From Pirellula sp. (GTDB lineage: Bacteria; Planctomycetota; Planctomycetia; Pirellulales; Pirellulaceae): a stretch of DNA of 64,000 nucleotides. Of the stretch, positions 24,282-25,810 are shown one piece after another. Location: positions 62,001-126,000 of the forward strand of contig JAJTID010000005.1 in assembly GCA_021300155.1 (NCBI GenBank). The letters are read 5' to 3'. The notes under the pieces are model-generated. The model was not told the DNA's origin. It saw nothing but the letters and a program-made list of their open reading frames with translations, and searched no databases. A program made the translations under genes and the position numbers. Numbering within the stretch: position 1 is the stretch's first letter; every line of letters begins with the position of its first letter.

Positions 24282-25607
24282 TCAATCTCCGCGGAGCTTT
24301 AAATTCATCGCGGTCAGTTTCTCACGAACTTCTGTGAGACTGGTTACGCCGAAGTTCTTGCACTCTAGCAAATCGTCACCCGTCTTCCGAACCAATTCAC
24401 CGATCGTATTTAGCTGCAAACGAACCATGCACTTTCTGGCTCGAACGGAAAGATTCAATTCGGAAATTGGTCGATCCAACATGACCTGCTGGTCAGGTGA
24501 CATTCCGCTTAGATCCAATGGTGGATCAGCTTCGCGTTTCTCATGTGCAAATTGACCGAGCGAGAGTCCTCGTGCGGTGAGCATTTCGCGAATTTCAACG
24601 AGCGAAGTCTCGCCGAAATTCTTGCTAGACAAGAGAGCCTGTTCGGAAACGCGAGTCAAGTCTCCAAGCGTTTGAATACCCATCTTATGCAGACAGTTTC
24701 GCGAACGAACAGACAATTCGAAATCTGTAACAGGAACGCTGAGCAACTGTGCCATGCGTTCGTTCTTCTTTTGGGAGTCTTCATCGTAAAGGACATTGCC
24801 GCCGGCGGCCGCATCCTTTAAATAAAGTCTGGCAAGTGCATTGTCTGGAGCTGTTTCGAGAACACGACGATAACAGGCCTGCGCGCGAATGAAATCATTT
24901 CGATCTTCGTACATCAACCCCAGATTGATCAATGTTCCAACGTGTGCGGGAATAACACCGGCACCCCGTTGATAGTATTCAAAAGCGATGTTGTCGTTTC
25001 CAAGTCGGTCACTCTCAACGGCCAAGCCAAAGAGGGCTCCCGCATGCTTTGGGTTGACTTGCAGGGCTCGTTGATACAACGCGAGAACTTCTGGCAGATT
25101 GCCTCCGATTGCAGACAATGTCGCGGCGCGTTGGTAAGGATATTCGGCGTTCTGCTCGACTGGGCCAAAGATGTTGTCTAGAAGCTTCAGAGCCTCTTCT
25201 TTTTTGCCTTGGTAACGGAAAACTTCCGCACGAGAAAGTTGGCACCATTCCGGCGTGTAGCCGGCTTTCTCAGCAGCTTCAAAATAGGCCAACGCTTTGT
25301 CATGTTCGCCCATTTGGAATGCAACTTTGCCCATGTAGTATTGCGGCAATGCTCCTCCATCGGACTGCTTCAATGCAGATTCGGCTTCGCGAAACTTTCC
25401 GATCAGGTACAAGCATACGCCAAGACGTGTCTTGCTAGCGGGTGACAAATTGGGGCTCTGCTCCAATTCCTGGACGGCATCCCGAAGCAATGCAGCTTGT
25501 GTAAAGTCTTCTTCGATCGCCCGAGAGAGCCGATCGATGTCTTGCGGGCCAAAAGTCTGGTTTGAAAGGACGATTTCGCGAATATCAACCGTTGCCGCTT
25601 GAACCAT
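24282..25607 (-). CDS. TPR protein with two RNA polymerase alpha-CTD-like domains
   Basis: Soluble protein of 441 residues. Residues about 60-290 carry tetratricopeptide repeats (AYFEAAEKAGY, VLALYQRALQVNPKHAGAL, ACYRRVLETAPDNALARLY). Two copies of the helix-hairpin-helix domain of the RNA polymerase alpha subunit C-terminus follow. The first is at about 298-360 (FELSVRSRNCLHKMGIQTLG then SSKNFGETSLVEIRE). The second is at about 378-441 (LNLSVRARKCMVRLQLNTIG then ECKNFGVTSLTEVRE). The alpha N-terminal assembly domain is absent, so it is not the RNA polymerase subunit itself. It may bind DNA UP-element-like sites or activators, with the TPR part as a protein scaffold; that is inference. Such proteins occur widely in planctomycetes. 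Confidence 0.88.
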   Translation of the reverse strand: MVQAATVDIREIVLSNQTFGPQDIDRLSRAIEEDFTQAALLRDAVQELEQSPNLSPASKTRLGVCLYLIGKFREAESALKQSDGGALPQYYMGKVAFQMGEHDKALAYFEAAEKAGYTPEWCQLSRAEVFRYQGKKEEALKLLDNIFGPVEQNAEYPYQRAATLSAIGGNLPEVLALYQRALQVNPKHAGALFGLAVESDRLGNDNIAFEYYQRGAGVIPAHVGTLINLGLMYEDRNDFIRAQACYRRVLETAPDNALARLYLKDAAAGGNVLYDEDSQKKNERMAQLLSVPVTDFELSVRSRNCLHKMGIQTLGDLTRVSEQALLSSKNFGETSLVEIREMLTARGLSLGQFAHEKREADPPLDLSGMSPDQQVMLDRPISELNLSVRARKCMVRLQLNTIGELVRKTGDDLLECKNFGVTSLTEVREKLTAMNLKLRGD

Positions 25608-25736: not shown

Positions 25737-25810
25737 AGCCGACAGTGGGAGTTGAACCCACAACCCCCGCATTACGAATGCGGTGCTCTGCCAATTGAAG
25801 CTATGTCGGC
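25737..25810 (-). tRNA. tRNA-Thr (CGT)
   Basis: The cloverleaf folds fully on the minus strand: acceptor stem GCCGACA with TGTCGGC, D arm GCTTCAATTGGCAGAGC, anticodon stem CCGCA/TGCGG around the loop TTCGTAA giving anticodon CGT, and T arm GTGGGTTCAACTCCCAC. The discriminator base is T and the CCA end is not encoded. It reads ACG codons. Confidence 0.95.

Follow-up and report, generated by a model that had tools for sequence, protein, structure and literature searches.

A TPR protein with two alpha-CTD domains, widespread in Planctomycetota and possibly a DNA-binding adaptor

The C-terminal domain of the RNA polymerase alpha subunit (alpha-CTD) is a central docking point of bacterial promoters and is normally fixed to polymerase. 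In the activation complex formed by AfsR the alpha-CTD also belongs to the polymerase. AfsR-type SARP activators are TPR-bearing regulators that act through polymerase (PMC10936776). Key DNA residues of the alpha-CTD include R265 and N268, and replacement of N268 with Ala or Thr is harmful in E. coli (PMC11434276); residues D259 and E261 of E. coli alpha interact with R603 of sigma70 (PMC5511352). The alpha-CTD and the TPR are each known domains, and our search of the open-licence literature turned up no account of a TPR protein that bears alpha-CTDs. The terms TPR and tetratricopeptide do not occur in the main text of PMC12283558 or of PMC10632474, which is a saturated transposon study of Planctopirus limnophila. 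The PVC signature protein of PMC3444138 is CT421.2, which is presumably different from the protein described below.

The gene described here lies in the window, by which we mean the whole 64,000-nucleotide stretch of Pirellula sp. DNA that was analysed. The ORF list and translation place it at 25607..24282 on the minus strand, with an ATG start and a product of 441 amino acids. A first-pass annotation had given positions 24282-25607 with the strand unstated; one ORF fits this interval exactly and is on the minus strand, while the plus strand of the interval contains several stops in the frame given. The features of the locus, with the evidence for each, are as follows.

24282..25607, minus strand: TPR-(alpha-CTD)2 gene, 441 aa, ATG start (ORF, translation, Pfam, orthologues)
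24801..25499, minus strand: TPR superhelix, residues ~37-269 (Pfam TPR models, AlphaFold, Foldseek, conservation)
24747..24812, minus strand: linker joining the TPR to module 1 over residues 266-287, its positions 274-276 forming a conserved acidic motif, YDE (conservation, low pLDDT at 271-280)
24552..24746, minus strand: alpha-CTD module 1, residues 288-352, in which R301 is E. coli R265 and E297 is E261 (residue alignment, conservation, fold)
24288..24482, minus strand: alpha-CTD module 2, residues 376-440, in which R389 is E. coli R265 and K392 replaces N268 (residue alignment, fold)
25737..25810, minus strand: tRNA-Thr(CGT), directly upstream of the gene (ARAGORN)

The Pfam RNA_pol_A_CTD profile matches the protein over two stretches with 143.4 bits against a cut-off of 23.8. 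Taken singly on this profile (PF03118, cut-off 23.8), module 1 scores 76.1 bits and module 2 75.4, about the same as the 76.9 bits of the RpoA CTD of the same genome, and these scores exclude a chance similarity to the alpha-CTD. The E. coli alpha-CTD is itself found from the window protein at E 6e-14. Ahead of the modules several Pfam TPR models score above their cut-offs over residues ~90-263, with TPR_1 at 72.9 bits against 27.8. The NCBIfam rpoA equivalog gives 129.4 bits, below its cut-off of 227.8, and matches with the last 78 positions of the model only; this C-terminal match and its sub-threshold score indicate that the alpha assembly domain is absent, and no model of that domain appears among the best 25 of 26 Pfam matches. 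Identity as RpoA was therefore rejected, as the protein is without the N-terminal assembly domain of alpha. The gene does not lie in a ribosomal-protein operon either, as it adjoins rsmH (MraW) and a rhomboid gene, both on the opposite strand, and a true rpoA is found elsewhere in the genome beside ORFs that we recognised by eye as S11-like and L17-like. The closest NCBIfam entry listed for this protein is PRK07758, a hypothetical protein.

An AlphaFold prediction of the full protein from 11 sequences (mean pLDDT 81.1) has a TPR superhelix to about residue 269 followed by two compact domains, with a weakly predicted stretch of low pLDDT in the linker at 271-280. When this model was searched with Foldseek the best 50 matches listed included TPR-type proteins and TPR superhelices, so the modules were folded and compared alone, giving a mean pLDDT of 83.7 and a pTM of 0.50 that leaves their relative placement unsure. 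Predicted module 1 aligns with 9zum, a Caulobacter alpha-CTD on A+T-rich DNA, with Z 14.0, rmsd 2.1 over 77 and 40% identity, and predicted module 2 aligns with 8hvr with Z 12.0, rmsd 1.4 over 73 and 38% identity. Pfam, the predicted model and Foldseek agree on tandem helix pairs forming a TPR superhelix, and both modules combine a score over the PF03118 cut-off with the predicted fold of the alpha-CTD family. The window protein is a TPR superhelix joined to two genuine alpha-CTD domains, without the assembly domain, which is the architecture that the first-pass annotation had read from the letters and which Pfam, NCBIfam, AlphaFold and the fold alignments bear out.

To compare the modules with polymerase we used E. 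coli numbering, anchored on R301 as R265, with the E. coli letters taken from the alignment with the E. coli alpha-CTD. Counts are of distinct sequences (82 for module 1, 70 for module 2 and 21 for native RpoA of the phylum), which include near-copies from one genus and are not independent. The DNA face of module 1 is almost uniform, with R265, N294, G296 and E302 each in 82/82, C269, T298 and S299 each in 81/82 and N268 in 80/82. Native RpoA has R265, N268 and T298 in 21/21, C269 in 20/21 and N294 in 18/21, and at position 299 Thr 15 times, Ser 5 and Ala once. The one departure of module 1 from E. coli is T298 in place of K298, and since native RpoA also has T298 throughout, this residue is common to working polymerase. 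Module 2 contains R265 and E302 in 70/70, N294 and G296 in 64/70, S299 in 63/70 and C269 in 47/70, while N268 is retained in 6/70 and is Lys in 46 and Arg in 16. For the DNA-contact set R265/N268/N294/G296/S299/E302, module 1 therefore has at least 80/82 at each position, and module 2 has 63 to 70 of 70 at each save N268, which is Lys or Arg in 62/70.

At the positions of sigma contact module 1 carries an acidic pair, D259 in 77/82 and E261 in 81/82, corresponding to D295 and E297 of the window protein. Native RpoA is acidic at 259 in 19/21 and at 261 in 9/21 (D 7, E 2; otherwise N 7, K 5), and position 261 of module 2 is N in 30/70. Module 1 also has residues specific to its family, F260 (82/82), R267 (75/82) and M273 (82/82), which are not common as a set to the 21 RpoA rows. 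The first-pass annotation had proposed checking which DNA- and sigma-contact residues were kept, with a loss of the DNA contacts from both modules counting against it; module 1 keeps both sets, and module 2 keeps R265 and not N268. On the side of sigma, the two strongest RpoD-like factors of the genome have, by eye, an Arg (in HPQRS and QPSRS) at what is presumably the place of R603. The genome encodes three RpoD-like sigmas just short of the RpoD cut-off (338-352 bits against 354) and a fourth at 228 bits (loci L156 and L157). A sigma-factor gene adjoins a repetitive cysteine-rich protein with repeats of the MVPECRQKTV type, in an open-ended frame of 394 aa (L156 2525-3709, minus strand).

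The family had been called recurrent in planctomycetes, which proves to be an understatement. Matches at E 1e-20 or better, a threshold above the reach of RpoA (whose matches fall at about 1e-8 to 5e-13), occur in 277/294 sampled Planctomycetota genomes, the two-module architecture having been read in the fetched loci among them. Each matching genome shows one match, among the five best candidates scored in nearly all of them. Good-quality genomes (completeness of 90% or more, contamination of 5% or less) match in 153/155; of the other two, G182 contains a copy truncated where the contig stops (C98:3-458), and G070 has a 73-residue frame matching module 1 and nothing more. Among the 40 genomes nearest to that of the window, its own included, we read a strong match in 37, two of them split over two contigs, and none in G004, G012 and G021. 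The last of these, from the same genus and 99% complete in 620 contigs, shows no copy and gave matches to RpoA and a short alpha-CTD only. A scan of named genomes, which reached close relatives, returned 11 loci, ten planctomycete-titled and one titled 'bacterium'. No plasmid or phage record covered 80% of the query, the matches listed (best 25 of 61 and 15 of 16) lying within residues 263-441 only, and a phage family library gave a weak TPR match and nothing else.

Conservation within the protein is uneven. Mean pairwise identity over the 21 genomes with both the TPR protein and RpoA (20 for module 2 and the N-terminal TPR half) is 0.661 for module 1, 0.523 for module 2, 0.604 for the RpoA CTD and 0.620 for the RpoA NTD, and 0.429, 0.410 and 0.267 for the C-terminal TPR half, the linker and the N-terminal half, so that the TPR is better conserved in its C-terminal repeats than in its N-terminal ones. 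Module 1 exceeds the RpoA CTD in 153/210 pairs and the RpoA NTD in 139/210, the pairs not being independent, and over these 21 genomes its conservation equals or exceeds that of the RpoA CTD. A set of 67 stop-to-stop rows, all distinct, was drawn from four loci of the genus and from L026-L105, minus six left out beforehand and minus identical rows; most of its invariant positions are in module 1, the last repeats and the linker. Y274, D275 and E276 of the linker are invariant in 11 aligned rows, and in the larger set D275 is found in 64/67 and E276 in 60/67.

A further set comprised 92 records with two alpha-CTD hits, among them one hand-added single-module copy and perhaps some genomes twice. 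In 6/92 fewer than 220 residues stand ahead of module 1 in the open frame, in one case (G003) owing to an in-gene stop. Module 2 is below 60 bits or absent in 9/92, from five genomes of family f59, two of family f90 and two named metagenome bins. Family f59 appears to be losing the module, which scores 26-41 bits in four genomes (L076, L078, L128, L131) and is absent from G127 (L093), the sole single-module copy among all fetched loci. Together with the conservation pattern, this decay and loss of module 2 marks module 1, with the adjoining repeats and the linker, as the core of the protein.

A tree of 101 domains over 71 columns, drawn at the midpoint with many forks open and the bootstrap not settled, recovers module 1 as a supported group (99/96, including the single-module copy) and module 2 as another (91/92), both apart from RpoA. 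The E. coli and B. subtilis alpha-CTDs group with RpoA, both on long branches, and the short alpha-CTD proteins that stand alone in the order branch from within the RpoA of the class, again on a long branch. On this tree the tandem looks older than the radiation of the phylum and not like a recent copy of rpoA.

We also compared 40 loci with flanks, selected among the matches by spread and by length of contig, with some families present two or three times. In 32/40 the gene directly adjoins some portion of a ruvC-ruvA-ruvB-queH-spoIID-tgt-yajC-secD chain; the nearest same-strand downstream gene of the chain is ruvC or ruvA in 19/40, a SpoIID-domain gene in 9 and tgt in 4. One further locus has tgt 2 kb on, and the linkage is absent in 7/40. 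Where the neighbour is ruvC or ruvA, 17/19 are within 60 bases between open frames. The longest chain, at L069, reads TPR-ruvC-ruvA-ruvB-queH-spoIID-tgt-yajC by NCBIfam and Pfam names, and secD comes next in others. This looks like a single ancestral chain that different lineages have shortened or left. Family f18 of the same class, in which a chain gene is found in 2/16 loci (L030-L045, flanks of about 1.5 kb), counts against that reading. In the order of the window the gene stays with tgt, without ruv, and in its genus it is outside the chain. The upstream tRNA-Thr(CGT), on the same strand, recurs in 27/28 genomes of the order that were scanned and in 0/49 others of the class and phylum, and in the order tRNA and gene are possibly one transcription unit. 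In the genus alignment the tRNA is preceded by a sigma70-like promoter, CTTGACgaTT then TTATtTT, which is weaker in the window sequence. No conserved A-tract stands out by eye upstream of this promoter in the genus alignment, and a scan for consensus promoters and terminators around the gene found nothing.

We favour, tentatively and as something short of probable, a housekeeping role in which the protein binds DNA as an adaptor, provides the function of an alpha-CTD in trans and tethers a partner held by its TPR. Upstream of the -35 element, module 1 would enter the minor groove of A+T-rich DNA as the polymerase alpha-CTD does, and module 2, with its extra basic residue, would help it to hold the DNA. 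The acidic pair D295/E297 could reach the conserved arginine of sigma and so touch its region 4. A conserved partner, which may be polymerase itself or else a general regulator, would be held by the C-terminal TPR repeats and the YDE linker and thereby be brought to promoters. Such an adaptor is possibly specific to the phylum, the genome survey being one of Planctomycetota. What speaks for it is the DNA face and sigma pair kept by module 1, its T298 shared with native RpoA, and the alignment at Z 14.0 with an alpha-CTD solved on A+T-rich DNA; the presence in 277/294 genomes and the identity of module 1 relative to the RpoA CTD argue for a housekeeping role. Against it are the conserved neighbours, ruvC/ruvA, spoIID and tgt/yajC with no polymerase or sigma genes, the Lys or Arg at N268 of module 2 and the decay or absence of that module in the f59 and f90 genomes examined, the lack of a visible upstream A-tract and the missing copy in G021. 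The conservation of the alpha-CTD face could also serve protein binding. A stronger version, which we consider unlikely, would make the protein a phylum-wide general transcription factor, its free alpha-CTD pair binding UP-type DNA and sigma in trans and tethering a TPR client at most promoters. We know of no such promoter-recognition component in other bacteria.

The first-pass annotation had suggested that the protein could compete with or recruit polymerase at UP elements, or bridge promoters to other proteins. Its architecture, spread and module 1 residues stand. N268 is missing from module 2, and the gene neighbourhood, where there is a conserved one, is of the ruvCAB-tgt-yajC kind and no RNA polymerase operon, which brings in a rival that it had not named. 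Because of the gene order this main rival is an accessory role in RuvCAB recombination or fork repair, in which the tandem alpha-CTDs would bind DNA that is branched or A+T-rich, with the TPR recruiting RuvA/RuvB or a fork protein. The close spacing to ruvC or ruvA and the full order at L069 agree with it, as does the helix-hairpin-helix-like fold of the alpha-CTD: on Pfam HHH_5 (cut-off 27) the stand-alone alpha-CTD of the same genome scores 27.4 bits and RuvA 31.3. The chain also holds queH, spoIID, tgt and yajC, however, which makes linkage alone a weak argument, and it is without ruv in the order of the window, missing from most f18 loci and separate from the gene in the window's genus. 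Junction binding would also have no obvious need for the acidic pair and minor-groove residues of the alpha-CTD, and we consider this role unlikely.

The face of module 1 might instead serve protein contacts in elongation or in the coupling of transcription and translation, for example with a NusA-like partner, with the TPR on another machine such as the ribosome or Sec. Alpha-CTDs do bind proteins such as Spx (1z3e, among the structure matches), F260, R267 and M273 are specific to the family, and yajC-secD occurs in some neighbourhoods. The DNA-contact residues are nevertheless kept beyond the needs of pure protein binding and nothing singles out an elongation partner; we consider this explanation quite unlikely. 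A decoy or antagonist, in which the free pair occupies UP elements or titrates activators and polymerase recruitment goes down, would account for DNA and sigma faces that are kept when the assembly domain is gone; its occurrence in nearly all genomes and the conservation of the TPR part speak more for a positive housekeeping role than for titration, and we regard the decoy as improbable.

Planctomycetes are bacteria of unusual cell biology. A free and duplicated alpha-CTD, one module of which is as conserved across the phylum as that of polymerase itself, implies that their gene expression or DNA maintenance has a core component that is unstudied.

Alpha-CTD domains outside RpoA are also found in the PglW kinase of BREX/Pgl phage defence, which resembles the window protein in carrying one alpha-CTD-like domain and differs in being a large kinase with a divergent module (50.3 bits). 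Membership of PglW/BREX was rejected for the window protein, as the PglW match is 25.4 bits over residues 288-345 only, with no kinase or whole-length match. The same genome does encode a BREX/Pgl kinase of PglW type that includes an alpha-CTD-like domain (L005 1-3162, minus strand; PADLOC PglW 1034 bits). Stand-alone alpha-CTD proteins of about 100 aa likewise place the domain outside RpoA in the same genomes, but with one module and no TPR. One of these in the genome of the window has 97 aa and a TTG start (L004 1429-1722, plus strand), with similar proteins in four other examined genomes of the order. The AfsR complex shares with our protein the presence of a TPR domain and an alpha-CTD in one activation complex, 8hvr being AfsR-dependent, whereas the window protein carries its own alpha-CTDs and has no SARP or nucleotide-binding domain among its best 25 Pfam matches. 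With the CTD of RpoA (PF03118) the modules share the fold and the DNA face, module 1 being 46% identical on average to the RpoA CTD of the same genome (21 genomes). In contrast to RpoA, the window protein has tandem copies of the domain that stand apart in the tree and are joined to a TPR array in place of the assembly domain.
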